A DNA stretch of 33,197 bases from Candidatus Haladaptatiplasma halalkaliphilum (GCA_019594055.1 JAFDTY010000012.1:1-33197), one strand, 5' to 3'. Positions 2,649-23,661 are shown, counted from the stretch's first letter. The notes: a model not told the origin generated them from the letters alone. Numbers and translations: made by a program.

Positions 2649-3179
2649 TCATTCACCGGACCTGATACACTTCACACCTTCTCTCAGTGCGTTCAAATTC
2701 AAATCAAGGAACCTCGAAGGTACGCTGTCCTTGACCGCCTCTTCGAGGGCCTCCTGAGGCACAAGGTCGGCAGCGGCATTGAAGGCGCCCAACATGACGA
2801 TGTTGGCGACTATCTTGTTACCCATCTCCTCGGCTATCCTCGTCGCCGGTACCTTATAAGCTCCTTCGTACTCCGCATAGGGCACAAGGTCAGGGTCAAG
2901 CACGACCACGGCATCGTCGGTAAGGTCGAAATTGTATTTGTCAAAGGCGGACTGTGACATGACCATCATGTACTGGGTTTCGGTCAAGCCACAGTAACCG
3001 ATCTCCCTATCGGATATGATCACTTCGGACCTTGCGGCGCCACCCCTGGCCTCGGGGCCGTAACTCTGGGTCTGAACCGCCTTGAAGTCATGGAACACAC
3101 TGGCAGCCTTCCCCAGTATCTCTCCCGCGGTCATTATCCCCTGGCCGCCACTTCCGCACAGCCGAATATTCTTTCTCAT
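2649..3179 (-). CDS. korC: 2-oxoacid (2-oxoglutarate):ferredoxin oxidoreductase, gamma subunit
   Basis: The 176-residue protein matches the gamma (POR/KOR domain) subunit: it opens with RLCGSGGQGIMTAG and has the family signature SYGPEARGGAARSEV at about residues 39-54. Length is normal. It is the last gene of the 12-gene cluster and its ATG overlaps the korB stop by 4 nt. With KorA, KorB and KorD it should form the cytoplasmic enzyme interconverting 2-oxoglutarate plus CoA with succinyl-CoA, CO2 and reduced ferredoxin. The 2-oxoglutarate preference is inferred from the separate four-subunit layout (korDABC order) and the TCA-branch neighbours; other 2-oxoacids cannot be ruled out. Confidence 0.92.
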   Translation of the reverse strand: MRKNIRLCGSGGQGIMTAGEILGKAASVFHDFKAVQTQSYGPEARGGAARSEVIISDREIGYCGLTETQYMMVMSQSAFDKYNFDLTDDAVVVLDPDLVPYAEYEGAYKVPATRIAEEMGNKIVANIVMLGAFNAAADLVPQEALEEAVKDSVPSRFLDLNLNALREGVKCIRSGE

Positions 3180-4042
3180 TCCATCAACTCCCTTACCATC
3201 TCGTAGTAACGATCCTCCAGGGTACTCTTGGTTTCACGATGTAGTACACCTATGACTATCTTGTTCGCGACAGCCTCTTTTTCCCGGTCACTGCCGAACT
3301 TCATGGTCATCTCGTAATCCTCCCTGAGTACGGTGTTTTCCATGTAAAAGTCCCACAAGGCCTTTATCTCACGTAATTTGTTCCTGCGACCGTAGGCAGT
3401 CGTGCACGGTGACATCATCTCTATGAAGCTGAAACCCCTGTTCCTCAACCCCTCGCGTATGGAGTTGATGGGCTGATTCGGGCGGTAAACCGGCCATCTG
3501 GCAACGTAGGTGGCGCCCGCGGCGATGGCCATCTTGCTCATGTCAAAGGGATACTCTATGTTGCCGTAGGGTGCCGTCGTCCCTATATGACCCACCGGCG
3601 TGGTGGGCGCAACCTGCCCCCCGGTCATCCCGTAGATGTAGTTGTTAACGGCTATAACCGTGATATCGAGGTTCCTTCTCACCGCATTGATGAAATGATT
3701 ACCACCGATACCTATGCAGTCGCCGTCACCCGTGAACACGATAACGTTGAGATCCGGGTTCGTCATCTTCACCCCTGTGGCGAAGGCCAGAGCCCGTCCG
3801 TGAGTGGTGTGTAGTGCATCCGCATCTATGTATCCTGGTATCCTGGACGAGCAGCCTATCCCCGACAGGAAGACGGTTTTCTCCATGTCCAGGCCTTCCT
3901 TCTCGATGGCCCATAGAACGTAATCCAATACGTTCCCCAGCCCGCAACCGCTACAGAATATGTGCGGCATCATGCCTTCCCGGAGATATCTTTCCTGGAT
4001 CACCTTGCCGCTTACCATGTCCGCATCTCTTATCTCGTCCAT
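3176..4042 (-). CDS. korB: 2-oxoglutarate:ferredoxin oxidoreductase, beta (TPP-binding) subunit
   Basis: This 288-residue subunit binds thiamine pyrophosphate and one [4Fe-4S] cluster. Visible features are CSGCG at residues 30-34 and Cys64 in GIGCSSR as cluster ligands, the TPP motif GDGD at 105-108 followed by NN at 133-134, and YGMTGGQ at 137-143, the hallmark of this family. Its ATG is 3 nt after the korA stop and its stop overlaps korC by 4 nt, so translation is probably coupled. It holds the active site where the 2-oxoacid is decarboxylated or, in the reductive direction, succinyl-CoA is carboxylated. Confidence 0.94.
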   Translation of the reverse strand: MDEIRDADMVSGKVIQERYLREGMMPHIFCSGCGLGNVLDYVLWAIEKEGLDMEKTVFLSGIGCSSRIPGYIDADALHTTHGRALAFATGVKMTNPDLNVIVFTGDGDCIGIGGNHFINAVRRNLDITVIAVNNYIYGMTGGQVAPTTPVGHIGTTAPYGNIEYPFDMSKMAIAAGATYVARWPVYRPNQPINSIREGLRNRGFSFIEMMSPCTTAYGRRNKLREIKALWDFYMENTVLREDYEMTMKFGSDREKEAVANKIVIGVLHRETKSTLEDRYYEMVRELME

Positions 4043-4045
4043 ACG

Positions 4046-5200
4046 TTACACCTCCGCCAGTATTTCATTCGGACTGTGATGTTCGCCGCCTATCTTACCC
4101 GAGAGCACAACCTCGCAGTGGGAGTATTCCCGCACCTTGTGGTAGATCTGGCCAAGGTTCATCTCCACCACCACTATCTTATCCACCTGACGGGACAATT
4201 CCTCGATGGCCTTTTCGGGGAAGGGCCATACGGTTTTCAACCTGAAATAGCCCACCTTTTTGCCTTCCTTTCTTGCCTGGTTCAGGGCGCCCAGGGCACT
4301 CCTGCTGGCCATACCGTATGATAGAAGGGCGACTTCCGCATCGTCCATCTCCCGGGTCTCGTAATCTGTGAGTTTTTCACGGTCATCGGTTATCTTCTCA
4401 CACAACCTTCTCACCAGTTTATCATGGACCTCCTGGTCATCGGTGGCCGGGAATCCGTGTTCGTTATGGGTCAGCCCCGTCACATAGGTCTTGTAGCCCG
4501 TCCCGAAAACCGCGAATTCGGGTACCTTTTTCTTGCCGTAGAGCCCGGGCCCGAAGGGAACATATTCCTCCGGAGGTACCTTCGGTTTCTTCCTCTCCAC
4601 CAGCTCTATATCATGGGGTATGGTCACCATCTCCCGCATGTGACCGATGTCTCCGTCTATCATCACGTGTACGGGTGTACGGTACTCTTCCGCAAGGTTG
4701 AAGGCCTTGATGGTGTGTTCTATGGTCTCCTGGATGGTATTGGGTGCCAGGGCTATTATCTCGTAATCACCGTGACTCCCGTACCTAACCTGCATCATGT
4801 CACCCTGGGCACTCAGGGTCGGCTGGCCCGTGGATGGCCCCGAACGCTGCACGTTGGCTATCACCACCGGGGTTTCCGTCATGGACGCATAGCCAAAGTT
4901 CTCCTGCATCAACGAAAATCCGGGTCCGCTTGTGGCAGTAAATGACTTCGCACCGGCCCACGAGGCTCCGATTATGGCGGCCATACTGGCTATCTCGTCC
5001 TCCATCTGTATGCAGACTCCACCCACCTTGGGCATGAGTCGCGCCATCATCTCGAAAACCTCCGATGCCGGTGTTATGGGATATCCGCCGTAAAAGGTAC
5101 AGCCCGCCAGGAGCGCACCGTAACAGAGGGCATGATCTCCGTGGATGAACTGCTTCTTCGGCCCCAGCACCTTTTTGATCCGTTCCATGTCAACCTTCAT
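4046..5200 (-). CDS. korA: 2-oxoglutarate:ferredoxin oxidoreductase, alpha subunit
   Basis: This 384-residue protein carries the alpha-subunit pyrimidine-binding domain. It has GDHALCYGALLAGC near the N-terminus, then the conserved YPITPASE segment at about residues 40-47, TATSGPGFSLM at about 88-98, and QRSGPSTGQPT around 118-128. The C-terminal part (about 285-384) resembles the domain II fold with EMNLGQ near the end. Length is usual for archaeal KorA without the gamma fusion. It starts 1 nt after the korD stop and forms the catalytic core with KorB. Family assignment is secure; 2-oxoglutarate is the most likely substrate given fumarase, fumarate reductase and sucD nearby. Confidence 0.94.
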   Translation of the reverse strand: MKVDMERIKKVLGPKKQFIHGDHALCYGALLAGCTFYGGYPITPASEVFEMMARLMPKVGGVCIQMEDEIASMAAIIGASWAGAKSFTATSGPGFSLMQENFGYASMTETPVVIANVQRSGPSTGQPTLSAQGDMMQVRYGSHGDYEIIALAPNTIQETIEHTIKAFNLAEEYRTPVHVMIDGDIGHMREMVTIPHDIELVERKKPKVPPEEYVPFGPGLYGKKKVPEFAVFGTGYKTYVTGLTHNEHGFPATDDQEVHDKLVRRLCEKITDDREKLTDYETREMDDAEVALLSYGMASRSALGALNQARKEGKKVGYFRLKTVWPFPEKAIEELSRQVDKIVVVEMNLGQIYHKVREYSHCEVVLSGKIGGEHHSPNEILAEV

Positions 5201-5201
5201 G

Positions 5202-5444
5202 TCAGGTCACCGCCTTCTTCTTGCCAGCCGAAATTTTCATCTTATCGTCCGTCTCGACGGTTATGGCGAAGTCTGGACATATGAGCTCGCACAAACGGCA
5301 TCCCACACATCTGTCCTCTATCTCAACGGGTATGTGAACCCCTTTTTTGTTGAGGACCTGACTCTCCTCCAGTGCTTTCCTGGGGCAGAATATTATACAC
5401 AGGTTACAACCCTTACAGTATCCTTCGTTCACCTCTATCATCAT
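5202..5444 (-). CDS. korD: 2-oxoglutarate:ferredoxin oxidoreductase, delta (ferredoxin) subunit
   Basis: This is an 80-residue two-cluster ferredoxin. Cys10, 13, 16 and 20 and Cys46, 49, 52 and 56 form two CxxCxxCxxxC sets, each followed by proline as in [4Fe-4S] ferredoxins. It sits 8 nt after the flavoprotein gene and 1 nt before korA. In this family the delta subunit carries electrons between the KorAB cluster and soluble ferredoxin. Its place at the junction between the fumarate reductase and Kor genes means the two activities are probably co-expressed from one message. Confidence 0.92.
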   Translation of the reverse strand: MMIEVNEGYCKGCNLCIIFCPRKALEESQVLNKKGVHIPVEIEDRCVGCRLCELICPDFAITVETDDKMKISAGKKKAVT

Positions 5445-5452
5445 CTTTCACC

Positions 5453-7111
5453 TTACAGGAACACCCCGATGTCGAGATGCCTTTCCAGTACCTTCTTACC
5501 CCGATATTCCGGGATGAGTAGCGGCGACCTCTCTTTCGTGTCCACTCCCGCATCCTCAAGGGCCTTCTGGTAACTGTTCACGTGGTTGAGTGTTAGTTTA
5601 CCGGGAGCAGCCTTGGATGCATGTTTTGCCGCGGATATACCCACACGTCTGCCGAAAACGTTGAAATCCAGGAGTGAATTGCCCATGAGCCTGTTCTTTC
5701 CGTGGACACCACCGGTGACCTCGCCGCACGCGAACAATCCCGAAACCGGAGTGGCACCTTGGGCGTCTATGGCTAGGCCGCCGTTCTGGTAATGCAGGGT
5801 GGGAAATACCAGTATGGGGTCTATGGTCATATCGATGTTGAATCTCTTGTACTGCCTTACCATTGCGGGTAAGTTTCTCGCCACGGTCCCCTCCCCCTTG
5901 ATAACATCTATCAACGGTGAGTCCAACCAGACTCCCTTCATCCCCGTGGGTGTTTCTATACCCTTGTCCCTGCCGTAGCATTCTCTTATGAAGGCGGCGG
6001 CTTCCACATCCCTGGGCTCCAGGGGGTTGACGAACATTTCTCCGTCTACGTTGATGGGCTGGGCACCGATACTCCTGACCTTTTCGGTAACCAGCAACCC
6101 CAACACCTGATCCGGGTAAGCCGCACCCGTGGGATGATACTGGACACTGTCCATATCTCTCAGGGGTACTCCCGCCCTGTAACCCATTATCAAGCCGTCA
6201 CCGGTGGCGCCGTAGTGGTTCGAGGTGGGATAGGACTGCACATGAAGGCGGCCGAAGCCTCCGGTCGCCAGCACCGTCGATCTGGCCCGGACCACGTAGT
6301 ATTCGTTGGTCTCGAGGTTCATGATTAGTGCGCCGGTAACACTGCCATGGTCATCGGTGAGCAATTCCACCGCGGGCGCGAACTCCAGAACAGGAACATC
6401 CTGGTTTCTGGCCTCGTCACGTATAACCCGCATCAACTCCATGCCTGTGTAATCACCGGAAGAGTGCATCCGGTATCTGGAAGTGCCACCACCGGGTAGT
6501 TCTATGAATTCGGAATCAGTGTCCCTGTCGTACAGTATCCCCAGTTCTTCGTGCCATCTGATCAATCTCGGTGCGTCCATGGTCAAGGCTTCCAGCAATT
6601 CGGGTACGTTGGTATAATGCCCTCCGCCCATGGCATCGAGATAATGCTGCACGGGTGAATCCTCCACCTTATCGGCCGCCTGGATACCTCCCTGGGCCAT
6701 CATGCTGTTGGAATCTCCGTGCCTCAATTTCGTGGCGATAAGTATGTTCTCGGGGGATATGCCCTCCCCTATGGCCCACAGTGCTGCAACGGTTCCCGCT
6801 CCACCGCCACCTATTATCAGGAGGTCAAGGTCGTAATCCACCTGCCCGAGGTCAATGTCTGCGGGGTCTATAAGACTCGGGGCTTCCAGTAATCTTAACA
6901 GTTCGAGGGGAGCCTTTTCTCCCTTGCTTGCACCTACCCTTATCTCGCGCTTACCCTCCTCCCTGTAATCCGGATGATATTTTTTCAATAGTTCATCGGA
7001 TTCGGAAGCGGGCATACGTTCGAAGGTTGTTTTCGCCCGTTCTTCCCTGGTACTTTCCAACTTCTCGATGGATTCCCGCATATACCTCGGATAGCCGTCA
7101 GTCATCTTCAT
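5453..7111 (-). CDS. tfrA: Fumarate reductase/succinate dehydrogenase-type flavoprotein subunit (tfrA-like)
   Basis: The 552-residue protein has the Rossmann FAD motif GGGGAG at about residues 101-106 and AQGG at 139-142. It also has QYHPTGA, the VRSIGAQ arginine region and HGKNRLMGNSLLD, the active-site blocks of fumarate reductases and L-aspartate oxidases. Residues 1-90 form an extra N-terminal segment. At the position of the histidine that binds FAD covalently in membrane FrdA/SdhA there is Asn135 (SNSMMAQGG), so FAD should be non-covalent, as in soluble thiol:fumarate reductase. No membrane anchor gene is near. The ATG overlaps the upstream FeS gene by 4 nt. The predicted role is interconversion of fumarate and succinate in the cytoplasm, with electrons from the adjacent FeS and Hdr proteins. 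Aspartate oxidase is a less likely alternative because nadA and nadC are absent here. Confidence 0.85.
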   Translation of the reverse strand: MKMTDGYPRYMRESIEKLESTREERAKTTFERMPASESDELLKKYHPDYREEGKREIRVGASKGEKAPLELLRLLEAPSLIDPADIDLGQVDYDLDLLIIGGGGAGTVAALWAIGEGISPENILIATKLRHGDSNSMMAQGGIQAADKVEDSPVQHYLDAMGGGHYTNVPELLEALTMDAPRLIRWHEELGILYDRDTDSEFIELPGGGTSRYRMHSSGDYTGMELMRVIRDEARNQDVPVLEFAPAVELLTDDHGSVTGALIMNLETNEYYVVRARSTVLATGGFGRLHVQSYPTSNHYGATGDGLIMGYRAGVPLRDMDSVQYHPTGAAYPDQVLGLLVTEKVRSIGAQPINVDGEMFVNPLEPRDVEAAAFIRECYGRDKGIETPTGMKGVWLDSPLIDVIKGEGTVARNLPAMVRQYKRFNIDMTIDPILVFPTLHYQNGGLAIDAQGATPVSGLFACGEVTGGVHGKNRLMGNSLLDFNVFGRRVGISAAKHASKAAPGKLTLNHVNSYQKALEDAGVDTKERSPLLIPEYRGKKVLERHLDIGVFL

Positions 7112-7809
7112 CCCTCCTTATGGAATTCACGTTTGTCGTATACCTTCTTGATATCTTCCTTCTTCATGGATACATACTCCTTCATCTTTTCTTCGTACAC
7201 ACCGTCGTGGAGCTCCCCTATCCGGTGGGCAAGTTGCTGGCTGTGGATATCTATGTATCTTCCCTTTATACGCCTTGCCTCCTGGGCCAGGTGATAGTGT
7301 TTGATATCCGCCGGACACCTTATGGAGCAAAGGCCGCACTGTATGCAGTCGAATGAAAGTTTGGCCGTACGATCGATGTCACCCCTCAAAGCTGCCTGCA
7401 CGTAGTCCATGACCTCTATATCCTGGGGGCATGCCTTGGTACACGTATTGCAAGATACACATCGCGCTATCTCCGGATAGTGTTCCAGTAGTATGTTGTC
7501 GTGCTCTTCCGGATCGACCTTATCGATTTGGAAAACCGTCCTGACCGCGGGAACGAAGGGAAGCTGCACCAGGAACATACCGTCCTCCACTGCGGTCTGA
7601 CATGCCAGGTCCATCCTCAACTTGTACTCGTTTTTGGTCCTGAAGACGGTTGAACAGGCACCGCAGAAACCTCCGCGGCAGCCGCAGCCCCTGACGTACT
7701 TGTAACCTGCGTATTCCAGGGCGGTCATGATGGTGAGTCCCTCGGGAACCCTGTACATCCGACCCATCACGTAGATGTCTATCATTTTTTCATCTTTATT
7801 CTCGGCCAT
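7108..7809 (-). CDS. tfrB: Fumarate reductase iron-sulfur subunit with 2Fe-2S and two 4Fe-4S motifs (tfrB N-half-like)
   Basis: The 233-residue protein begins with a plant-type 2Fe-2S domain: Cys42, 44, 49, 52 and 70 in a GCGCRGGFCGAC context. Two 4Fe-4S motifs follow, Cys117/120/123/127 and Cys155/158/161/165. It ends in a charged helical tail (about 180-233). This is an SdhB-like electron wire with a second full 4Fe-4S motif where SdhB/FrdB often has a 3Fe-4S site. In methanobacterial thiol:fumarate reductase, TfrB also has a fused HdrB-like C-terminal half; here that part is a separate gene just upstream, 6 nt away. It probably passes electrons from the CCG protein to the flavoprotein. Confidence 0.83.
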   Translation of the reverse strand: MAENKDEKMIDIYVMGRMYRVPEGLTIMTALEYAGYKYVRGCGCRGGFCGACSTVFRTKNEYKLRMDLACQTAVEDGMFLVQLPFVPAVRTVFQIDKVDPEEHDNILLEHYPEIARCVSCNTCTKACPQDIEVMDYVQAALRGDIDRTAKLSFDCIQCGLCSIRCPADIKHYHLAQEARRIKGRYIDIHSQQLAHRIGELHDGVYEEKMKEYVSMKKEDIKKVYDKREFHKEG

Positions 7810-7815
7810 ATCATA

Positions 7816-8664
7816 TCACTCCAGAATCTTTTTCTCCTTCAACATTTTCTTGGGGTCTATCCAGTGCTTTTCCATGCCCACCTCGAGGCCGAAGGCGAGT
7901 GCCATCAGCTCGGTGAGGTAGAGTACGGGTATATCGTATCCAGCTGACCGCTGGTGATAATCCAGGTTGAACTGACAGAGCGGGCAGGAAAGTGCTATCG
8001 CATCCGCGCCGTCATCCACGGCTCTTGCCACGATGGCTTTCACTCGTTTCTCCACGATATCACTGCGGTTAACGGTATGATAGGAGCCGCAGCATTCCGT
8101 CCTTTTGGGGTTGTCGATAACCTGGGCACCCAGGACCTCCAGAAGCTCTTCCATCACCTTGGGGTTCTCGGTATCGTCCATGGCTATCTCCGTGGGTCGC
8201 AACAGCATGCATCCGTAATAGGGGGATATCCTCAGTCCGTCCAGGGGTTTTACAGTTTTTTTACTTATCTCCCTGCCCATCTTCCTCAATATCTCGAATA
8301 AATGGAAAACCTCCACCTCGCCTCTGTAATCCGGGTCCTCGTCCAGGAACTCGTTCAGGGTCTCCAGGTCCTGGGGTTTCTCTCTCATCCTGAGATTTGC
8401 CTGTTTCAGAACGTTGTAGCACATGTCGCACAGGGTGACGAGTTCGGTTTCGCCCTGCTCCTGGGCGCAGCACATGGTGCGTACGGGCGCTATCTGGTGC
8501 ATCAGATCATCCGTGGTGAGGGATTGTACCGCACCGCAGCAGTACCAATCGTCCATCTCAACCAGGGGTTTTCCCAGGGCTTCCATGACGGCCATGGCAC
8601 TCTTCTCGTAATCGCTGGCCTTTGTTTTCAACGTACATCCGGGGTAGTAGAGGTATCCTTCCAT
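7816..8664 (-). CDS. hdrB: CCG-domain heterodisulfide reductase subunit B (HdrB), or split C-terminal half of TfrB
   Basis: The protein has two full cysteine-rich CCG domains: YYPGC, then WYCCG and CDMC in the first; YYGC, then ECCG and CPLC in the second. These sets hold the paired noncubane [4Fe-4S] clusters that split CoM-S-S-CoB in methanogen HdrB. I chose the ATG at 8664, since it is preceded by GGTGAT at good spacing and leaves no overlap with hdrC; an in-frame ATG at 8700 would extend the protein by 12 residues. It lies between hdrC and the 2Fe-2S subunit, so it could serve the Hdr complex, the fumarate reductase, or both. It is the only such gene in the window. Confidence 0.88.
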   Translation of the reverse strand: MEGYLYYPGCTLKTKASDYEKSAMAVMEALGKPLVEMDDWYCCGAVQSLTTDDLMHQIAPVRTMCCAQEQGETELVTLCDMCYNVLKQANLRMREKPQDLETLNEFLDEDPDYRGEVEVFHLFEILRKMGREISKKTVKPLDGLRISPYYGCMLLRPTEIAMDDTENPKVMEELLEVLGAQVIDNPKRTECCGSYHTVNRSDIVEKRVKAIVARAVDDGADAIALSCPLCQFNLDYHQRSAGYDIPVLYLTELMALAFGLEVGMEKHWIDPKKMLKEKKILE

Positions 8665-8668
8665 CCTA

Positions 8669-9055
8669 TCACCCGGTCTCCTTCCTGAAACAGCCCACAA
8701 CCGCCAGCTGGGGCAGTATCTCCATGTTCTCGATCTTGGTGATGTCCACCATGTCTATGTTCTCCCGCAGCATTATCTGCCTCACCGCCTCCATTATCCT
8801 GGCTATGTCGATATCCCTGGGACAGCGTACGCTGCAGGTGAAGCAGGCCGCGCAGATCCACATGGTGTTCCCTTTCAGGATCCCCTCCCTATCGCCCAGG
8901 ACTATCTTCTTGAATACCCTTTCCGGCAGGACTTCCATTTCGTCCACAAAGGGGCAGCCTGCGGAACAGGTGCCGCACCTTATGCATGCATTCACCGATT
9001 GCCCCGAAAGTTCCTCAACCTTCTCCAGGAAGGCGGGATCGGGTTTTACCTTCAT
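8669..9055 (-). CDS. hdrC: Heterodisulfide reductase subunit C (HdrC)
   Basis: This 128-residue iron-sulfur protein has Cys24/27/30/34 and Cys68/71/74/78, two 4Fe-4S motifs each ending in a Cys-Pro pair, and a C-terminal helical part with DIARIMEAVRQIMLRE. Length is slightly below that of methanogen HdrC. It overlaps the mvhA stop by 4 nt and ends 4 nt before hdrB. In Mvh-Hdr complexes HdrC links the flavin of HdrA to the catalytic HdrB, so its position between mvhA and hdrB fits that electron path. Confidence 0.9.
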   Translation of the reverse strand: MKVKPDPAFLEKVEELSGQSVNACIRCGTCSAGCPFVDEMEVLPERVFKKIVLGDREGILKGNTMWICAACFTCSVRCPRDIDIARIMEAVRQIMLRENIDMVDITKIENMEILPQLAVVGCFRKETG

Positions 9056-10506
9056 GGTATATCCCCCATGCCCTGTTCAAGGGTTCCATACACGCGTTTG
9101 TCCGGTCCGTAAAGTGTTACCCTCAGAGGGGTTTCGCCCATGGCCGAATGTGTGGCACAGGCCAGGCAGGGGTCGTAGGCCCTGAAGGCACGTTCGACAC
9201 TGTTGAGCATCCCCGGCTGTAAGTTACCACCGTCGACGTATTTTCTGGCGGCGTCGGTGATGCTCATGGAGATGGGTGCCGCATTGTGTATGGTGGCAAC
9301 GATGAGGTTGACGTCTTCCATCAAACCTTCACTGTTAACATGATAATCGTGTATAAGAACCCCCCTTGCCGCCTCCACTATACCCACACCTCTACCGGGC
9401 TCACCGGGTTCATTCCGTATGTCATCGCTCTCAAGAGTATCGTCGGCTGTCAATTGCCGTACCAGTTCAGCGGCCTGTATAACTTCGATGAGTCTTGCCC
9501 AGTGATAGGCAAGGGTTGAATGTACCGGACGCCCCAGGATTTCGAACATCTCTTCATATTCCTTCTGGGCCAAAGGCGTTTTCATGCCGTCGGCGGCGTT
9601 GATCCTCCCCAAAGGTCCCACCCGGTATATGCCGGAGTCCTTGCCTTCCACGAAACCCTTCCATCCCACTTTCTTCAGGTACGGGAATTTCATGTAGCTC
9701 CAGGGTTCGACGTGTTCCCGGATAACATCCAGATAATCCGCACCGGAAAAGCTGGCGAACGGTTTTCCCGACGGGTCAACCACATTCACCTTTCCGCCGG
9801 TATGACTCAGTTTACCGTCCTGGACCAGACCCATACTGTAAAGCTCCAACCTGTCTTCCAGGATGGGGGCTTTGTATACCTCTAAAACCTTTTCCTTGAA
9901 AAGCCCCATGGTGAACCGGGAAAACTCGACCATCTCCCGTGACATGGCCTGTATCTCTTCCCGTTCGTCCCTTTTAAGTGATCTGGTAACACCACCGGGA
10001 ACGCCGAAGCACGGATGTACCGCCTTGCCCCCCAGGGTGCTGATTATCTTCTGGCCCTTTGCCCTTTCCCGGATGACTTTTTTGCCGATGTCAAGGCCCA
10101 CTTTACGTATCACCCCCAGTATGTTCCTTTCGGTACGAGGTGCCTCGGTACCCACCAGGAAATCCGGGCTGGCAAGGAAATAGAAGTGCAGAAGATGATC
10201 TGCATAGATATAGCCGTTGTAGATCAACTCTCTCAGATTCAAAGCTGTCTCCGTGGGTTCGACACCGTAGGCCCGGTCCAGCGCCTTAGTGGATGCCAGA
10301 TGGTGTGCCACCGGACAGACACCACATATACGGCTGGTGATGGTGGGCATATCTTCCGCTCTTCGCCCGTGGCAAAATTTTTCGAAACCCTTGAACTCGG
10401 GAACCTGCAGATAGGCGTTCTTGACGTTCTTTTCATGGTCCAGGAATATATCGATCTTACCATGTCCTTCCAGCCTTGTTATGGGGTCTATGGAGATCTT
10501 ATCCAT
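9052..10506 (-). CDS. mvhA: F420-non-reducing [NiFe] hydrogenase large subunit (MvhA)
   Basis: This 484-residue group 3 [NiFe] hydrogenase large subunit has both nickel-binding pairs: RICGVC (Cys61, Cys64) and DPCLACATH (Cys447, Cys450, His453). The N-terminal ITRLEGHGK block is also typical. About 31 residues follow the last histidine; whether this tail is removed by a maturation protease cannot be told from sequence. It overlaps mvhG by 8 nt and hdrC by 4 nt. It is the cytoplasmic H2-activating subunit and has no signal peptide, so electrons go through MvhG and MvhD to HdrA. Confidence 0.95.
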
Positions 10507-11470
10507 GAATATCCCTCCGTTTGTACCGGAAATAACTTTTCGGTAGACTGAACCTGTAGAAGGAACCCGTGGGATCCCTTACACTGTTCACCACGTCTTT
10601 CAGTTCACTCTCGTCCATCCTTTCCTCCCCCTCTGCACCCAGTACCGATGCCAGTGCCGACGCCATCCTTGCACCTTGATCCTTAACTCCCCTCACCGGT
10701 CCGTTGCATCCGATGCACGGATGCCCTACCGACGGGCAGGGGGCTTCGCACATACCCGCTGTTGCAGGACCCATGCACAAGACACCCTGGTCGAGTATGC
10801 AACTTTCAGGGTCCAGCATCTTCTCCTGTATGGGGTACAGCCTTGGTATCCTCTTCTCCTCCCTCTCCAGGGGACATTGGTCACAAACACTCTTCTGTGA
10901 CACAAGGTCGTACTTGCCTACCTTGCCTTGAAGTATCAGTGGCAAACCCTCCTTCAACTGATTGGGGAGTGGGGGGCAACCGGGAAGGTAAATATCGACC
11001 TCTATCACCTCATCCAGAGGGCGTACGTGATGCTGTAAAGGCGGTAGATGAAGCTCGCCTTCCGGTACCTTACTGTTCTCTACCGGGATAACACCCCCTT
11101 TGTCCGTTGAAGGAGTATTGTAACCGTATTCCAGCAACTCTTCCCTGCTGTAAAGATTACCCAGTCCGAAGAGCCCGCCGATGCTGGAGCACGAGCCGTA
11201 GGCGACAACCTTTTTAGATTTCTCCCGAAGCAATTTAGCCATCTCTTCATTTTCCTTGGAACGTATGGAGCCGTTGATGAATACCACATCCAGACTGCCG
11301 TCCTCCATGGCCCTCAAATCTTCGTACTTGGGGTCCATGGCACAGGGCCAGAACACGATATCCGCCAGCTCCACAACCTCCAGTATCATCTCGTCTATGT
11401 CCAGGACACTTACCTCACAACCTCCGCACGAAGCGCACCAGTAAAAACCGATCTTGAGTTTGTCGCTCAT
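10499..11470 (-). CDS. mvhG: F420-non-reducing hydrogenase small subunit (MvhG)
   Basis: This 323-residue [NiFe] hydrogenase small subunit carries the N-terminal cluster motif CASCGGC (Cys12, 15, 18), then GSCSSIGG, LPGCPP, CDQCPLE and PCIGCNGP, which supply ligands for three FeS clusters. The absence of a Tat signal marks it as a cytoplasmic group 3 enzyme. It starts 4 nt after the mvhD stop and overlaps mvhA by 8 nt. Its role is to carry electrons from the NiFe site to MvhD. Confidence 0.94.
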   Translation of the reverse strand: MSDKLKIGFYWCASCGGCEVSVLDIDEMILEVVELADIVFWPCAMDPKYEDLRAMEDGSLDVVFINGSIRSKENEEMAKLLREKSKKVVAYGSCSSIGGLFGLGNLYSREELLEYGYNTPSTDKGGVIPVENSKVPEGELHLPPLQHHVRPLDEVIEVDIYLPGCPPLPNQLKEGLPLILQGKVGKYDLVSQKSVCDQCPLEREEKRIPRLYPIQEKMLDPESCILDQGVLCMGPATAGMCEAPCPSVGHPCIGCNGPVRGVKDQGARMASALASVLGAEGEERMDESELKDVVNSVRDPTGSFYRFSLPKSYFRYKRRDIHG

Positions 11471-11474
11471 ATCT

Positions 11475-11891
11475 TTACACCTCTTCCTTCAATTCCAGGG
11501 GTCCCAATTCACGTACAAGCTGGGTCATCTCTCGCATCACCCGGGCGAATTTGTTCCCTTCGGCCGACGATATCCACTCCAACCTCAAACGCCCGGGGTT
11601 TATACCGAGATCCTCGAACATCCTGGAGACCATATCCATCTTCCTGAAGGTCTTGTAGTTTCCGTCTATGTAATGGCAGTCTCCGGGGTGACAGCCTGTA
11701 ACCAGCACCCCGTCCGCACCGTCCATGAAGGATTCCATGATATGCTCGGGTGTTATACGTGACGAACACATCACCTTTATCCCCAGAACGTTGGGCGGGT
11801 ACTGTTCCCGGTTCACACCCGCAAGGTCTCCGCCACCGTAGCTGCACCAGTTACACAGGAAAACGATTATCTTCGGTTCGAATGAAGTCAT
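11475..11891 (-). CDS. mvhD: F420-non-reducing hydrogenase iron-sulfur subunit D (MvhD)
   Basis: This 138-residue protein has the MvhD cysteine pattern: CNWC at Cys13/16, Cys42 in VMCSSR, and GCHPGDCHY at Cys67/72, binding a 2Fe-2S cluster in characterised relatives. MvhD bridges the hydrogenase and HdrA. Its ATG directly abuts the stop of hdrA at 11892 with no spacer. Here it is a separate gene; in some archaea and bacteria it is fused to HdrA. Confidence 0.94.
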   Translation of the reverse strand: MTSFEPKIIVFLCNWCSYGGGDLAGVNREQYPPNVLGIKVMCSSRITPEHIMESFMDGADGVLVTGCHPGDCHYIDGNYKTFRKMDMVSRMFEDLGINPGRLRLEWISSAEGNKFARVMREMTQLVRELGPLELKEEV

Positions 11892-14800
11892 CTAGAGCAC
11901 CTCGTCGTCAAGTAGAGCCGCCCTTATCATGGCCATAATGGTATCGTTCTCGTAACCCTTCTGGTCTATGGCTCCCACGGGGCACACGCTGGCGCATGAA
12001 CCGCATCCCTTGCAGAGTACGTCTGTGATAACGGCCTTATCTTCTTCGGGGTCGTGGTCTATGGCTCCGTACGGGCATACCGCAATGCACATCTTGCAGC
12101 CGCTGCATTTATCACTGTCAACCACGGATATGATACCCTCGCTCCTGGTATGACCGAGCATCATGGGTATCATGGCTTTGGAAGCCGCCCCTTCCGCCTG
12201 GGCAAGGGTGTCAGATACATTTTTCGGATAATGTGCGCCCCCGGCCAGGTAAACTCCCTCGGAGGGGAATTCCAGCGGTCTTAGCTTGGCATGAGCCTCC
12301 ATATAGAATCCCGCAGGGTCGGATGATATCTTGAGCATCTTCTTCAGTAACGGTGCGGTTTCATCACCTTCCAGTTGCATCGCCAGTACGATATAATCGG
12401 CATGGATCTCAAGCTCTTCGTCCAGAAGGTTATCACGGACCTTGAGGTGAAGCTTACCTTCTCCCACGGTAACCTCGGGCCCCTCCCCTGTGGAGTATCT
12501 CAGGAAGACGACACCGTCCTTCCCCTCCACATCCATGTAATATTCCTCTTCCCCCTTTCCAAAGACCCGCATATCTTTGAACAGTATGTAAACGTTGGAT
12601 CCCGGATATCGCTTCTTCACCTCCTTTGCATTCTTCAGGGAGTTACCGCATCCCACACGACAGCACCACGGGCGCTCCTCCTCCAGGGCACCGACGCAGT
12701 TGATGAACACCACGTTTTCCGGTCTTTCAAGTTCGTGGGATGCCAGGGCCTCGTCGAACTCCAGCTGGGTCATGATCCTCGGATCTTTACCGTATCCGTG
12801 CCAGCCCTGGGGTTCTATCTCCCTGAAACCCGTTGCCAGGACTATGGTGTCCGCCTGGATATCCTCGCCGTTAATCCGGGCAGTGTAATTGCCTATGTAA
12901 CCCTCTATGTTCTCCATCACGGCGGACAGGATAACACGGATATTCCTTTCGTCTTCCACCTCGTGTGCTATGCGATCCGCAAATTCCCTTGCGTCGATAT
13001 CCGATGGGAACAGTGTATTCAACCTTCGCAGCTTACCACCGAGTTTCGCTTCCTTCTCCACCAGTGTTACCCTCTGCCCCGCCCTGGCCAGTGTCAGTGC
13101 GGTTTGCATGCCCGCGGGACCGCCTCCTATGACCAGTGCCCGATTCCCCACCATTATCTCCTCCTCGGTGAGAGCGGAGAGTCTCTTGGCTTTGGCAACA
13201 GCCATCCTGGTCAAGAGTATTGCCTTTTCCGTGGCTTTTTGCCGATCGTCACTGTGAACCCAGCTGCAATGGTTCCTTATGTTAGCCATCTCAAAGAGAT
13301 AGCGGTTCAAACCGACTTCCTCCATGGTATCCTGGAACAGGGGCGCGTGGGTTCGGGGTGAGCAGGCCGAGACCACTATCCTGTTCAGGCCGTGCTCTTC
13401 GATGGCCTTCTTTATTTCAGTCTGGGCATCCTCAGAACATGCGAACATGCTGTGGTCCACATGGGCAACCGAGGGTACATCCCTTATTGCCTCAACCACA
13501 CCTTCGACATCGAGATAATGGGCTATGTTCTTACCACAGTGGCAGACGAAGACCCCTGTCCTCGGTTCTTCCCCGGATACGTCTCTTTGAGGTCTTTTCT
13601 TACGCCTTCCCTTTCTGGGCCTCTCGAGCAAGGGCATCAACGCCCTGGCAGCAGCACCGCTGGCCTGGGACACACTGTCCGGAATATCCTTGGGTGATTG
13701 TGCACATCCCGCCATGTAAATCCCTTTCCGGGTGGTATCCAAAGGTGCCGTGAGCAAGTCCCGGGAATCGAAGAATCCGTACTCGTCCAGTGATATCTCA
13801 AGGATCTCCGCCAGCTTTTTGTTGTCTGAAGATGGGATTATGGCCGAGGAGAGCACCACCATATCCACATGGTCCGTTCTCACCTCTCCCTTCTCGGTAT
13901 CCTCGTACTCCACTGCCAATCTTCCGTCAGTCAGCCCGTAAACCCGGGACGGGCGCCCTCTCAGGTACCTTACCCCTTTATCCCTCGCCTTGTCGTAGTA
14001 CTGCTGGAAGTCCTTACCGTAGGCCCTGAGGTCCATGTAATATATGGCAGTGTCAAGTTCCGGATCCTCACCCTTGCTTATGGAGGCCTGCTTGGTGGAG
14101 TACATGCAGCATACCCTCGAACAGTATGGCATACCCTTCTGCTTGCACCTGGAGCCTACGCACTGTATCCATGCGACGGATGCCGGTGGCTTGCCGTCTG
14201 TGCGTTTCAGTACCTTACCGCCCGTCGGCCCCGAAGCCGAAAGCAACCGCTCGTACTCCAGGGCGGTGAGTACGTTGGGATATCTGCCGTAACCGTACTC
14301 CTCTCTCCACTCATGGGGCTGCATCATCTCGTATCCGGTAGCCAGCACTATGCTGCCCACCTCTACGGTTATTTCCCGGGAGGTATCCAGGAAGTTTATG
14401 GCTCCCGCATCACAGATGCGTTCGCAGGCGCCGCAACCCACGCAGTTCGTGTAATCCAACGTATATGTAAGAGGCACGGATTGTGGATATTCCACGTAGA
14501 TGGCCTTGCGATCCGATAATTTCTGTTCGAATTCGCTGGGCACCTCAACGGGGCAGGCCGTTTCGCAGTCGCCGCATCCCGTGCATATGTCGGGGTCGAC
14601 GTATCGCGTTCTTTTCCATATCTTGGCCTCGAATCCGCCGGCGCCGCCCACCACGTCTTTGACTTCCGAATAGGTCAATAATGTGATATTTTCATTCCTG
14701 CTGGCCTCCACCATCTTTGGGGCCGATATGCATATAGAACAGTCGTTGGTGGGAAAGGTCTTGTCAAGCTTGACCATATTTCCACCTATGCTGGGGCTTT

Positions 14801-14897
14801 TATCCACCAGTACGACCTCATACCCCTTTTCCGCAAGGTCTAAGGCCGCCTGAACGCCGGAGATCCCGCCGCCGATGATGAGAACATCTTTTTTCAT
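11892..14897 (-). CDS. hdrA: Double-length heterodisulfide reductase subunit A (HdrA), tandem flavoprotein fusion
   Basis: The protein is about 1000 residues; methanogen HdrA is about 650. Counting from the possible upstream ATG at 14915, half one has a Rossmann FAD motif (GGGISG, 15-20), FPTNDCS and an inserted ferredoxin (Cys111/114/117/121 and 158/161/164/168). Half two starts at about 455 with the HdrA N-terminal cluster domain (VCHCG, Cys493, Cys518, HCSWVH), then a second FAD motif (GGGPAG, 597-602) without inserted ferredoxin, and a C-terminal ferredoxin (Cys937/940/943/947 and 968/971/974/978). HdrA carries the bifurcating flavin in Mvh-Hdr. The start at 14897 (MKKDVL) was chosen because the Rossmann strand begins there, preceded by GGTATGAT; ATGs at 14906 and 14915 are alternatives. 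It is the first gene of the cluster. Confidence 0.92.
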   Translation of the reverse strand: MKKDVLIIGGGISGVQAALDLAEKGYEVVLVDKSPSIGGNMVKLDKTFPTNDCSICISAPKMVEASRNENITLLTYSEVKDVVGGAGGFEAKIWKRTRYVDPDICTGCGDCETACPVEVPSEFEQKLSDRKAIYVEYPQSVPLTYTLDYTNCVGCGACERICDAGAINFLDTSREITVEVGSIVLATGYEMMQPHEWREEYGYGRYPNVLTALEYERLLSASGPTGGKVLKRTDGKPPASVAWIQCVGSRCKQKGMPYCSRVCCMYSTKQASISKGEDPELDTAIYYMDLRAYGKDFQQYYDKARDKGVRYLRGRPSRVYGLTDGRLAVEYEDTEKGEVRTDHVDMVVLSSAIIPSSDNKKLAEILEISLDEYGFFDSRDLLTAPLDTTRKGIYMAGCAQSPKDIPDSVSQASGAAARALMPLLERPRKGRRKKRPQRDVSGEEPRTGVFVCHCGKNIAHYLDVEGVVEAIRDVPSVAHVDHSMFACSEDAQTEIKKAIEEHGLNRIVVSACSPRTHAPLFQDTMEEVGLNRYLFEMANIRNHCSWVHSDDRQKATEKAILLTRMAVAKAKRLSALTEEEIMVGNRALVIGGGPAGMQTALTLARAGQRVTLVEKEAKLGGKLRRLNTLFPSDIDAREFADRIAHEVEDERNIRVILSAVMENIEGYIGNYTARINGEDIQADTIVLATGFREIEPQGWHGYGKDPRIMTQLEFDEALASHELERPENVVFINCVGALEEERPWCCRVGCGNSLKNAKEVKKRYPGSNVYILFKDMRVFGKGEEEYYMDVEGKDGVVFLRYSTGEGPEVTVGEGKLHLKVRDNLLDEELEIHADYIVLAMQLEGDETAPLLKKMLKISSDPAGFYMEAHAKLRPLEFPSEGVYLAGGAHYPKNVSDTLAQAEGAASKAMIPMMLGHTRSEGIISVVDSDKCSGCKMCIAVCPYGAIDHDPEEDKAVITDVLCKGCGSCASVCPVGAIDQKGYENDTIMAMIRAALLDDEVL

Positions 14898-14915
14898 GTT
14901 TATCATACCATGCAT

Positions 14916-15054
14916 GGGGTTAGGGGCTTCTCATGGGGAGTATTAAGAGGTTAATAATACCTTCGGTCGTGCAAGAATAACTCATCCGAAATTTTTTTCA
15001 TATATGTTATGGGAATAATCTTTAAATCTTACCCCTAGATAACGGGATGATATC
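14916..15054. promoter_or_regulatory. Divergent promoter region of the hdrA cluster and fumAB
   Basis: This 139-nt spacer separates the 12-gene minus-strand cluster from fumA. For fumA, a TATA-like CTTTAAAT at about 15019-15027 lies roughly 30 nt before the ATG, and GGGATGAT just before the ATG is a plausible ribosome binding site, so the leader would be very short. For hdrA, an A/T-rich GTATTATTAA is visible on the minus strand at about 14952-14964. A shared spacer suggests that the two halves of the TCA branch may be co-regulated. Confidence 0.45.
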
Positions 15055-15921
15055 ATGAACTCTATGGAATTCCGGGATAAGGTTGTCGAGGCGATCAGAC
15101 TGGCGGTAACAAGGGTGACCCCAGAAACCGAGCTTGCCTTGAAGGATGCTGTCGATTTTGAAGATGATCGGGGACCGAAGGTACAGTTGAACGCCATACT
15201 GGAGAACATCTGTATAGGCAAGGACGAAGGTGCCCCCATATGCCAGGATACGGGCACCATCACATTCTTCGTGGAGGTCGGTGCTGAATTCCCTCGGATC
15301 TCCGGCATAAAGGATGTACTGACGGAGGCAGTGCAAAGGGCGTCCGTAGAGATACCTTTGAGACCGAATGCCGTGCACCCCATGACCCATGATAATACCG
15401 GTGACAACACCGGGCGGTACACACCCCCCATCCACTGGGATGTGGTGCCCGGTAAAGGGCTAACGGTACACGTGATGCCGAAAGGAGGAGGTAGCGAGAA
15501 CATGAGCAAATTGGTTATGATGACTCCCGGCAAGGGGCTGAAGGGAGTTAAGGAGATAGTCATCGACCAGGTAGCGGCCATGGAAGGGAAACCCTGCCCG
15601 CCCACTGTGATAGGGGTAGGCATCGGCGGAGGGGCCGATATGGCATTGGAGCTGGCGAAAAAGGCACTTCTGAGACCGGTTGGTGAACGTCATCCCGAAG
15701 TTGAAGTGGCGAACATGGAGATGGAACTTTTGGAGAAGATAAACCGACTGGGTGTCGGCCCCATGGGCATAGGCGGGAAGACCACCGTTCTGGATGTGAA
15801 GATAGAATACGCCCATCGTCACCCCGCATCCTTCCCCGTGGCCGTGGTTCCCCAGTGCTGGGCCAATCGGCAGGCGAAGGTGATAGTGAGTGATGACGGG
15901 AAGGTGGAGGTGTTCGCATGA
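15055..15921 (+). CDS. fumA: Class I fumarate hydratase, alpha (N-terminal) subunit
   Basis: This 288-residue protein matches the N-terminal half of iron-sulfur fumarases, encoded as a separate alpha subunit in archaea. Cys63 (ICQDTGT), Cys181 (KPCPPT) and Cys268 (PQCWANRQ) are the three expected [4Fe-4S] ligands; the fourth iron position binds substrate. GVGIGGGADMALELAKKAL at about 187-205 is another family block. It interconverts malate and fumarate. Its stop overlaps the beta-subunit start in an ATGA, so the two are translated together. It sits opposite the fumarate reductase cluster, whose substrate it makes. Confidence 0.95.
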   Translation: MNSMEFRDKVVEAIRLAVTRVTPETELALKDAVDFEDDRGPKVQLNAILENICIGKDEGAPICQDTGTITFFVEVGAEFPRISGIKDVLTEAVQRASVEIPLRPNAVHPMTHDNTGDNTGRYTPPIHWDVVPGKGLTVHVMPKGGGSENMSKLVMMTPGKGLKGVKEIVIDQVAAMEGKPCPPTVIGVGIGGGADMALELAKKALLRPVGERHPEVEVANMEMELLEKINRLGVGPMGIGGKTTVLDVKIEYAHRHPASFPVAVVPQCWANRQAKVIVSDDGKVEVFA

Positions 15922-16505
15922 AAAAGGTACTGACCACACCCCTAGACCCGGAAGAGGTTTCACGGCTAAGGGTAGGTGACGCATTCTACATCACAGGTAT
16001 CATATTCACCGCCAGGGATTCCGCACACGAGAAATTTTTATCCCTCAGGGACGAAGAACTGCCTTTCGACCCGGCAAAGTACGCACTTTTCCACTGCGGC
16101 CCGGCCATACACAAGGTGGATGGTAAATGGACTGTGGTCTCCGCCGGCCCCACCACCAGCATACGCATGGAGATATTCGAGGACAAATTCATCGAAAGGT
16201 TCGGCACGAAGATAATAATCGGCAAAGGTGGTATGGGTGAGCGTACGCTCAAAGCACTGGAAAAGCACGGGGCGGTCTACGTTCAGTACACCGGTGGTGC
16301 CGGTGCCCTGATGGCCAAGGCCATCGAGGAGGTGGAAGATGTACACTTCCTTGAAGAACTTGGCATACCGGAGGCATTCTGGATGTTCAGGGTAAAGGAA
16401 GCGGGACCATTCCTGGTGACCATGGACTCCACCGGTAAAAGTTTGCATGCCGATGTGGCGGAGACGGTAAAGAAGAATCTGGCGATCATCAAGGCGGAGC
16501 TTTGA
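15918..16505 (+). CDS. fumB: Class I fumarate hydratase, beta (C-terminal) subunit
   Basis: This 195-residue protein corresponds to the C-terminal half of class I fumarase. Family blocks are the early GDAFYITGIIFTARD segment, the substrate-contact stretch SAGPTTSIRM around residues 74-83, GKGGMG at about 103-108 and YTGGAGALMA at about 124-133. It overlaps fumA by 4 nt and has no other nearby partner. A tartrate dehydratase beta subunit has the same fold, but the fumarate reductase next door makes fumarase far more likely. Confidence 0.93.
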   Translation: MKKVLTTPLDPEEVSRLRVGDAFYITGIIFTARDSAHEKFLSLRDEELPFDPAKYALFHCGPAIHKVDGKWTVVSAGPTTSIRMEIFEDKFIERFGTKIIIGKGGMGERTLKALEKHGAVYVQYTGGAGALMAKAIEEVEDVHFLEELGIPEAFWMFRVKEAGPFLVTMDSTGKSLHADVAETVKKNLAIIKAEL

Positions 16506-21587: not shown

Positions 21588-22757
21588 TCAGAATCCCATC
21601 AGACCGCAGCATCTGGAACAAAGGGGAAAAACGCCTTCGGGTTGATCCGCGAGTGCCTTTCTGAATCGTCTGAATCTTTCGTTGTTGTATATGTCCAGAA
21701 GTTCATGGTTCTTTATGTTTCCCATCACCATATCCGGAAAATCCCTGCAGTTGACCACATCTCCGTTCGGCATGATGTTCGCCTCCACCCAAGGCGTAAG
21801 ACAGTTATTCCACCCCAGGAAATCTGCAGGGTCGGTGTAATATGTCTCGATCTCACTTTCCGGCAGGTTAGGCACGAAGGATACCGGAAAACTCCATCTT
21901 CCGTTCCTTATGTCCCTGACACTTTTCTTTAACGCCTCAAAATCCGCCCCGGAATTGTCCCTCACGTAGGATTTCCAGGCAAAGGGTTCAACACCAAGTT
22001 CCTTCCGCATCACATCACAGTGTTTCTCACCCACCTCCCGGCTGGTGAACCACGAATAGTATATCACAAGACAGTCCGGATCAAATCGTTCGCACTCCAG
22101 CACCGTATCCATGAGATGATCGTAATTTGAACTTGAGAGTGTGGTGAGGAGGAACATCTTGGGGAGTTTTTTACCATCGCCCTTGAGCTCGTTGATGCGT
22201 TCAACACCCCGTCTCATGGTCCTGTAGGCACCTTTCACGCCCCTGCACTTGTCGTGTACCTCCTCCGGTCCGTCCAGGGAGACGCATATCATGTCCCAAC
22301 CACTTTCCACTATCTCGTGGGCCTTCTCTTCCAATTTAACCCCGTTTGTGACAACTTGTAGCGTCAATTTTTTGTCTTTGATGTGATGGCATAGATCCAT
22401 CAGTCCTCCGTAGAGAAAGGGTTCCCCTCCGGTTATGTAGATGTGAGGTTTCAGGTGGGCGACACTGTCTATCATCTCCTTGTATCTTTCAACACTTACA
22501 TTACCCTTCACCGTCGGCAACTCATTGTCGTCCCTGTTGTAACCACCTTCACCGTATTGCCCGCACACCGCACATCTGTGATTACACTTGTCGGTTATAC
22601 GCATGCTTATGAGCCAAAGGGCGTTACTCTCACCTGTCTTTTTCCACCGGTCAAGATTTGCACGATAATACTTTCTACCGGCGCCTCTGAGCATGCTACC
22701 CATGAGGAACGGGGTGTCCATGAAAGGCTTCGCCAGGGCTGTGGGAAACTTTTTCAT
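21588..22757 (-). CDS. Radical SAM protein with SPASM-type C-terminal domain
   Basis: This 389-residue protein has the radical SAM CxxxCxxC motif at Cys58, Cys62 and Cys65 (TDKCNHRCAVC), then TGGEPFLYGG for SAM binding and VSLDGPEEVHDKCRG. The C-terminal region has further cysteines (NNCLTPW, GDVVNCRDFPD, CSRCCG), as in SPASM domains that hold auxiliary clusters. It has MoaA/NirJ/PqqE-like features but none that fixes a substrate, and no peptide precursor gene is visible nearby. It starts 31 nt downstream of sucD on the same strand and may share its transcript. The function of this member is unknown. Confidence 0.87.
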   Translation of the reverse strand: MKKFPTALAKPFMDTPFLMGSMLRGAGRKYYRANLDRWKKTGESNALWLISMRITDKCNHRCAVCGQYGEGGYNRDDNELPTVKGNVSVERYKEMIDSVAHLKPHIYITGGEPFLYGGLMDLCHHIKDKKLTLQVVTNGVKLEEKAHEIVESGWDMICVSLDGPEEVHDKCRGVKGAYRTMRRGVERINELKGDGKKLPKMFLLTTLSSSNYDHLMDTVLECERFDPDCLVIYYSWFTSREVGEKHCDVMRKELGVEPFAWKSYVRDNSGADFEALKKSVRDIRNGRWSFPVSFVPNLPESEIETYYTDPADFLGWNNCLTPWVEANIMPNGDVVNCRDFPDMVMGNIKNHELLDIYNNERFRRFRKALADQPEGVFPLCSRCCGLMGF

Positions 22758-22788: not shown

Positions 22789-23661
22789 CTATCGCAACGC
22801 CCCTTCCAGTAATTTGCCTATTTCACCGGGCATCCTTGCAACAGCGACACCTGCATCCTCGAATGCCTTCATCTTGGATTCCGCCGTACCGGTACCACTT
22901 TCCGATACGATAGCACCCGCATGGCCCATGCGCTTGCCCTTGGGTGCCGTTCGTCCCGCGATGTAAGCCACCACGGGTTTCTTGAATTCGTTTTGTATGT
23001 GGCGTGCCGCCTTCTCTTCAGCACTGCCCCCTATCTCACCTATGAGAACGACTGCTTCCGTGGTACTGTCTTTGGCGAACATCTTCAGTACTTCTATGAA
23101 GTTAAGGCCCACAACGGGGTCACCGCCCAGACCCAGAGCCGTGGATTGACCATGGCCCAGCCTTGTCATGGCATTAACTATCTCGTAGGTCAATGTGCCG
23201 CTCCGGGACACCAGACCGATGTTGCCTTCCTTGAAGATATGGTTTGGCATGATGCCCATCTTCGTTTTCCCGGGAGTTATTATACCGGGAGTATTGGGGC
23301 CTATTATGGTGGTACCGTGGATCTCCGCAAGACGTACTATCTTGGTTGAATCGTGTACGGGGATCCCTTCCGTCACTATCACAACGGGGTCCAGTCCGGC
23401 GCTTATGGCCTCCAGGGCGGCGCCCTTGGCAAAACGGGAAGGCACGAATATTATGGATGCACTCGCCCCGGTTTCCTCTTTGGCCTTGAGTACGGTGTTG
23501 TAAACGGGTATACCGTTCACCTCTTCCCCTCCCTTTCCCGGTGTAACACCCGCCACGATGTTCGTGCCGTACTCCTTCATGTATCCACTGTGGTAACTAC
23601 CCTGGGTACCGGTTATTCCCTGTACCAGCACCTTCGTCTTTTCGTCTACCAATATGCCCAT
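22789..23661 (-). CDS. sucD: Succinate-CoA ligase (ADP/GDP-forming), alpha subunit
   Basis: This 290-residue protein matches SucD along its full length: [15 protein letters not shown] at the CoA-binding start, [30 protein letters not shown], and [18 protein letters not shown] with the phosphohistidine His247. It makes succinyl-CoA from succinate, CoA and a nucleoside triphosphate, or the reverse. The beta subunit sucC usually lies beside it but is absent here; the downstream neighbour is a radical SAM gene. Metabolically it joins the fumarate reductase and Kor enzymes. A CATTTAAG box on the minus strand at about 23686-23693 and the lack of a leader suggest leaderless transcription. Confidence 0.95.

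Follow-up and report, generated by a model that had tools for sequence, protein, structure and literature searches.

A candidate H2-fed, HdrA-bifurcating fumarate reductase encoded together with a 2-oxoglutarate:ferredoxin oxidoreductase in Candidatus Haladaptatiplasma halalkaliphilum

The window, that is the whole stretch of 33,197 nucleotides analysed here, is an entire contig of the 1.8-Mb draft genome of Candidatus Haladaptatiplasma halalkaliphilum. On its minus strand twelve genes follow each other in the order hdrA-mvhD-mvhG-mvhA-hdrC-hdrB-tfrB-tfrA-korDABC, from HdrA (14915) to KorC (2649). The first gene, hdrA (11892..14915), codes for a 1007-aa protein of a two-flavin form, and mvhD (11475..11891) for a 138-aa protein (PF02662, E 5.7e-51) which is the predicted electron link from the hydrogenase to HdrA. 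By family matches mvhG (10499..11470) and mvhA (9052..10506) code for the small and the large subunit of a [NiFe] hydrogenase. These are followed by hdrC (8669..9055; 2x[4Fe-4S]), hdrB (7816..8664; two CCG domains), tfrB (7108..7809; 233 aa, [2Fe-2S] plus 2x[4Fe-4S]) and tfrA (5453..7111), the last coding for a 552-aa flavoprotein of the fumarate reductase/succinate dehydrogenase type. The run ends with the ferredoxin-type subunit korD (5202..5444), the 2-oxoacid:acceptor oxidoreductase alpha subunit korA (4046..5200; NF006412, 554 bits against a cut-off of 411), the TPP subunit korB (3176..4042), whose top match is a 2-oxoglutarate ferredoxin oxidoreductase beta subunit, and the gamma subunit korC (2649..3179). 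The eleven junctions from hdrA to korC measure 0, 4, -8, -4, 4, 6, -4, 8, 1, 3 and -4 nt, computed with the ATG at 8664 as the start of HdrB. This start is most likely the correct one because the listed ORF start, a TTG at 8700, would overlap HdrC. The ORF and family calls thus confirm the earlier note, which described twelve genes running in one direction with junctions of -8 to +8 nt.

The same note had placed fumAB divergently on the same spacer, and this holds in the window. The genes fumA (15055..15921) and fumB (15918..16505) lie on the plus strand, separated from hdrA by 139 bp (14916..15054), and code for the alpha (TIGR00722 and PRK06246 above cut-off) and beta (TIGR00723 above cut-off) parts of a class I fumarase. 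Weak TATA-like sequences, found by eye and by pattern, are present about 28 nt upstream of fumA (CTTTAAAT) and about 24 nt upstream of hdrA (CTTAATAC). A promoter and terminator pattern scan gave the same counts as shuffled sequences; its patterns were of the sigma-70 kind, which are not applicable to archaea. About 6 kb past fumB the window carries sucD (22789-23661), coding for the alpha subunit of succinate-CoA ligase, which would complete the step from succinate to succinyl-CoA if the beta subunit is encoded elsewhere. A radical SAM/SPASM protein is encoded at 21588-22757, and no listed curated family comes near its cut-off for this protein.

A search for TfrA covered 100 genomes, the window genome counted in. 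Orthologues with an N-terminal extension of about 94 aa are found in 32 of the 100, and 12 of these belong to the family of the window genome; the remaining TfrA matches are generic flavoproteins, about 35% identical. The run from HdrA to KorC is complete on a single contig in four members of the family (G003, G005, G007 and G014) and unbroken up to the contig ends in seven more genomes (G001, G002, G004, G008, G009, G012 and G013). As far as the contigs extend, the order described in the earlier note is kept in 11 of 11 relatives of the same family which carry the tfrA orthologue. This conservation across relatives argues that the operon is not a chance arrangement; it is real and conserved. 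The divergent fumAB, present only in the window and in G003, had to be rejected as a conserved trait.

By its predicted domains the 1007-aa HdrA is an unusual, rearranged two-flavin protein. It begins with a TrxR-like domain with an inserted ferredoxin domain (about residues 1-440), continues with an HdrA N-domain (about 447-590) and a second TrxR-like domain (about 590-850), and ends with 2x[4Fe-4S]. The bifurcation signature of the solved HdrA is E356/K409 (PMC9430772). Their equivalents in the first flavin domain, E222/K275, are the same in each of the 16 two-flavin homologues, which also keep the inserted ferredoxin domain. The second flavin domain of the window protein has D721/K761; the Lys is invariant in all 16 homologues, and the residue at position 721 is Asp in six of six family sequences and Glu in the ten other two-flavin HdrA proteins. 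The predicted model of HdrA (pLDDT 81.5, pTM 0.84) aligns to chain 5odc_A with a TM score of 0.75, normalised to the 5odc chain. The HdrA of Sporomusa ovata shares the two TrxR-like flavin domains and the E/K signature in the first; it differs in lacking the inserted ferredoxin domain and in working with MetVF (PMC9430772).

All of HdrA, HdrB, HdrC, MvhA, MvhG and MvhD are encoded in the operon, and the ligands of HdrB and MvhA are intact: the ten cysteines of the HdrB CCG domains are invariant in 35 homologues, and the cysteine pairs C61/C64 and C447/C450 of MvhA in 17. In TfrB 12 cysteines are invariant in 50 homologues; its predicted model has a pLDDT of 86, and a fold search gave partial matches only, to chains of the RnfC, NuoG and HdrC types. 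In TfrA the substrate-binding and proton-shuttle residues H326, T342, E343, R367, H440 and R474, aligned with E. coli SdhA, are invariant, and the N-terminal extension is conserved. For KorDABC the four subunits in delta-alpha-beta-gamma order and their best matches fit a 2-oxoglutarate:ferredoxin oxidoreductase; the alpha subunit alone passes its curated cut-off.

Two other identities of the flavoprotein were considered. TfrAB of Methanothermobacter has a soluble TfrA-type flavoprotein which feeds a reductive route to 2-oxoglutarate; it uses CoM-SH and CoB-SH, and its TfrB carries an HdrBC-like part. A CoM/CoB thiol:fumarate reductase of this kind was rejected for the window, since TfrA scores 321 bits against a cut-off of 718 for the curated TfrA model and a family search finds neither an HdrBC-like C-terminal half nor CCG domains in TfrB. 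The earlier note had remarked on neither the absence of this half nor the length and two-flavin layout of HdrA. L-aspartate oxidase was rejected for the family, in which several relatives have a separate NadB-like protein adjoining NadA. In the window genome no other NadB was found, and there alone TfrA may have a double role as NadB.

We propose that the operon codes for a soluble, H2-fed fumarate reductase in which HdrA bifurcates electrons, predicted to be co-transcribed with Kor as the consumer of ferredoxin, and we give this reading about an even chance (roughly 0.5). MvhA and MvhG would draw electrons from H2, and MvhD would hand them to a flavin of HdrA, which would split each pair. One electron would pass via HdrC and HdrB to TfrB and on to the TfrA flavin, where fumarate, taking the role of CoM-S-S-CoB, would be reduced to succinate. 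Its partner would reduce ferredoxin via the inserted ferredoxin domain of HdrA, and the reduced ferredoxin would drive the carboxylation of succinyl-CoA with CO2 to 2-oxoglutarate by KorDABC. The net reaction of the bifurcating part would be 2 H2 + fumarate + oxidised ferredoxin giving succinate + reduced ferredoxin. From the genes and their residues we infer a single complex with a hand-over from HdrB to TfrB, bifurcation, and reduction as the main direction. Against the proposal, many related clusters have no hydrogenase, Kor is missing near about half of the TfrA loci with good flanks, and the genome has a second Hdr/Mvh system.

This second system lies on contigs C4 and C57 (loci L138 and L139), beside genes of beta-oxidation; NuoE/NuoF-like genes are found there too, together with a second MvhA and the gene for an acyl-CoA synthetase. 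The supercluster holds genes for thiolase, 3HCDH, enoyl-CoA hydratase, HdrC-HdrB-HdrA, NuoE/NuoF-like proteins and more long HdrA proteins, and in addition MvhD, an FrhB-like protein, acyl-CoA synthetase and MvhGA; in one relative (L142, G007:C45) a large part of these genes is contiguous. Its gene content suggests an Hdr-linked beta-oxidation.

The direction of the reaction requires a separate discussion. The calculated dG of 2 H2 + fumarate + ferredoxin is about -85 to -58 kJ at 1 bar H2, and it becomes zero at 0.004-0.8 Pa H2, depending on the ferredoxin potential and the succinate/fumarate ratio. Reduction would thus be favoured at 1 Pa H2 or more, and a reversal would be possible under strong removal of H2. 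An unlikely but credible alternative is that the complex is run backwards, as in syntrophic amino acid oxidation: Kor would oxidise 2-oxoglutarate derived from glutamate, TfrAB would oxidise succinate, and HdrA would confurcate the low- and high-potential electrons to H2. The stoichiometry balances equally well with one ferredoxin pair per succinate, the H2 pressures of the equilibrium are within reach of strong scavenging, and the second Hdr locus adjoins the thiolase, 3HCDH and enoyl-CoA hydratase genes. A search of 21 genomes found malic enzyme in 19, and most family genomes lack archaeal PEP carboxylase, a pattern which also suits the oxidative direction, though a pyruvate-carboxylase-type gene is found in most of them. 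GTP-PEPCK is mostly missing too. On the other side, TfrA has an Asn (N135) at the position of the His which carries covalent FAD, and it is Asn in all aligned TfrA. In the FrdA of E. coli it is succinate oxidation, more than the reduction of fumarate, that is abolished when covalent FAD is lost. Moreover, a search for the Si type of citrate synthase, which could supply another route to glutamate, found none in 16 family genomes, and this fits with 2-oxoglutarate being made reductively. The Asn and the energetics together favour fumarate reduction as the probable net direction. The earlier note had put the reductive direction first and allowed for the reverse; the reverse proved credible, given malic enzyme, the beta-oxidation-linked Hdr and the closeness to equilibrium below about 1 Pa H2. 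A link to the acetyl-CoA pathway was rejected, there being no CdhC in the family.

The proposal of an H2-fed bifurcating fumarate reductase can be extended to a single supercomplex, with Kor docked on HdrA and both flavins splitting electrons, so that H2 oxidation, fumarate reduction and 2-oxoglutarate synthesis would be wired together as half of a reductive TCA cycle, driven by H2 and working without free thiols or quinones. We regard this extension as doubtful. Still more doubtful is a version in which HdrCB and TfrAB are linked by some small thiol/disulfide, like CoM-SH/CoB-SH between Tfr and Hdr of methanogens, and not by direct transfer. All ten CCG cysteines of HdrB are kept and the solved HdrB structures act on heterodisulfide, both of which suit such a link. 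However, TfrB lacks the HdrBC-like half which would oxidise the thiols, the operon has one HdrCB pair, situated beside both its Mvh-Hdr side and its Tfr side, and McrA is absent. McrA is found in 11 of the 100 genomes and in none of the 32 TfrA carriers, the window genome included. With the two sets of carriers disjoint, CoM-S-S-CoB is unlikely to be the acceptor, and fumarate would be the natural one.

A scan of species genomes with the TfrA alignment gave at least 588 relatives, and the best 80 of these come from Thermoplasmatota, Bathyarchaeota, Heimdallarchaeota, Bipolaricaulota, WOR-3, Chloroflexi, Bacillota and others. In dozens of phyla, both bacteria and archaea, TfrAB adjoins HdrABC. 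TfrB lies near TfrA in 50 of the 54 loci with wide flanks, HdrA in 46, HdrB in 44, HdrC in 38, MvhD in 34, Kor in 25, MvhA in 15 and fumarase in 14-15; these counts are lower bounds, as blast-based labels can miss diverged copies, and the loci include two records which duplicate contigs of the relatives. Misbinning is probable for some records (L059, labelled Spirochaetaceae, is an example). The unassigned genes within the clusters sort into c0, FrhB/4Fe-4S-like proteins; c1, NAD-binding reductases; and c2, HycI-type proteases. Around the Hdr-Tfr core the electron input is MvhGA, FlxABC-like, FrhB-like alone, or none found. On a TfrA tree made by a quick method (FastTree) the input types are intermixed, with 23 changes against a shuffled mean of 38, and in Heimdallarchaeota Mvh and Flx versions occur in sister groups. 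Since many related clusters have no hydrogenase, the core appears independent of H2, and the hydrogenase is, judged from these neighbourhoods, a swappable part. The reading of the locus in the earlier note, an H2-bifurcation module, thus finds partial support as Mvh-Hdr-Tfr with a Kor partner, on the strength of identities, operon, conservation and signature; the hydrogenase does not survive as a fixed component. Kor and fumarase are frequent companions of the core. It is very unlikely that the operon merely co-regulates separate enzymes of the same metabolic role, an H2:fumarate reductase that does not bifurcate and a Kor that is independent of it: Kor is missing beside many TfrA loci, but the bifurcation signature and the inserted ferredoxin domain are conserved and the association with Kor is repeated in distant phyla.

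Some loci depart from this picture. In four from Dehalococcoidia and other Chloroflexi (L099, L110, L111 and L113), the genes after TfrB-TfrA code for a 4Fe-4S protein and an acyl-CoA dehydrogenase, and then comes fumB; there is no HdrA nearby, and in three of the four fumA lies upstream. L096 (Bathyarchaeota bin1093) has a lone TfrA without TfrB or Hdr neighbours, its first 67 residues unmatched. Close TfrA sequences on contigs labelled Spirochaetaceae, Chloroflexaceae or Oscillochloris (L059, L062, L071 and L080, the last three with a two-flavin HdrA too) reflect misbinning or horizontal transfer.

The idea of a bifurcating Hdr/fumarate reductase has already been published for NADH. In the clusters of Rubin-Blum et al. 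(PMC6315080), korABCD and tfrAB are interspersed with flxABCD-hdrABC, and the authors suggested that both enzymes are supplied with electrons directly; operon-like expression of such a cluster, tfrAB excepted, is described for Endoriftia (PMC11636981). The clusters of the tubeworm symbionts and Thioflavicoccus share HdrABC, a four-subunit Kor and TfrAB with ours; theirs have NADH (Flx) input and lie inside a full reverse TCA cluster, whereas here the input is H2, the organism is an archaeon and the window has no ATP-citrate lyase. The 'succinate operon' of Pseudoclostridium thermosuccinogenes (PMC7282089) also combines fumarase, an Flx-Hdr bifurcating complex and fumarate reductase, with ferredoxin reduction proposed; it belongs to a bacterium, has NADH input, and no Kor is mentioned there. 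For the bifurcating fumarate reductase that paper cites a 2019 preprint by Koendjbiharie and van Kranenburg. Methanogen HdrABC-MvhAGD (5odc) shares the H2 donor, the HdrA flavin with its ferredoxin arm, and HdrCB; its acceptor is CoM-S-S-CoB, and its HdrA has about 650 aa and one flavin domain against 1007 aa and two here. The open-licence literature, to which our search was confined (subscription papers were outside its scope), gave no description of an H2-fed version with Kor. The novelty suggested in the earlier note is therefore reduced to the H2 input, together with Kor; the NADH (Flx-Hdr) version of the idea is known.

If the proposal is true, fumarate would be a direct high-potential acceptor of HdrABC-type bifurcation. 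It would explain how H2 is coupled to ferredoxin for carboxylation in anaerobes which have neither methanogenesis nor a quinone-linked fumarate reductase; if the complex is run backwards, it would offer a syntrophic route by which the electrons of succinate are released as H2. The Hdr-Tfr core is testable in cultured carriers, for example Clostridium lacusfryxellense (L117) with its NADH-type cluster, and the breadth of this core suggests a widely used, largely unassayed energy-coupling device.
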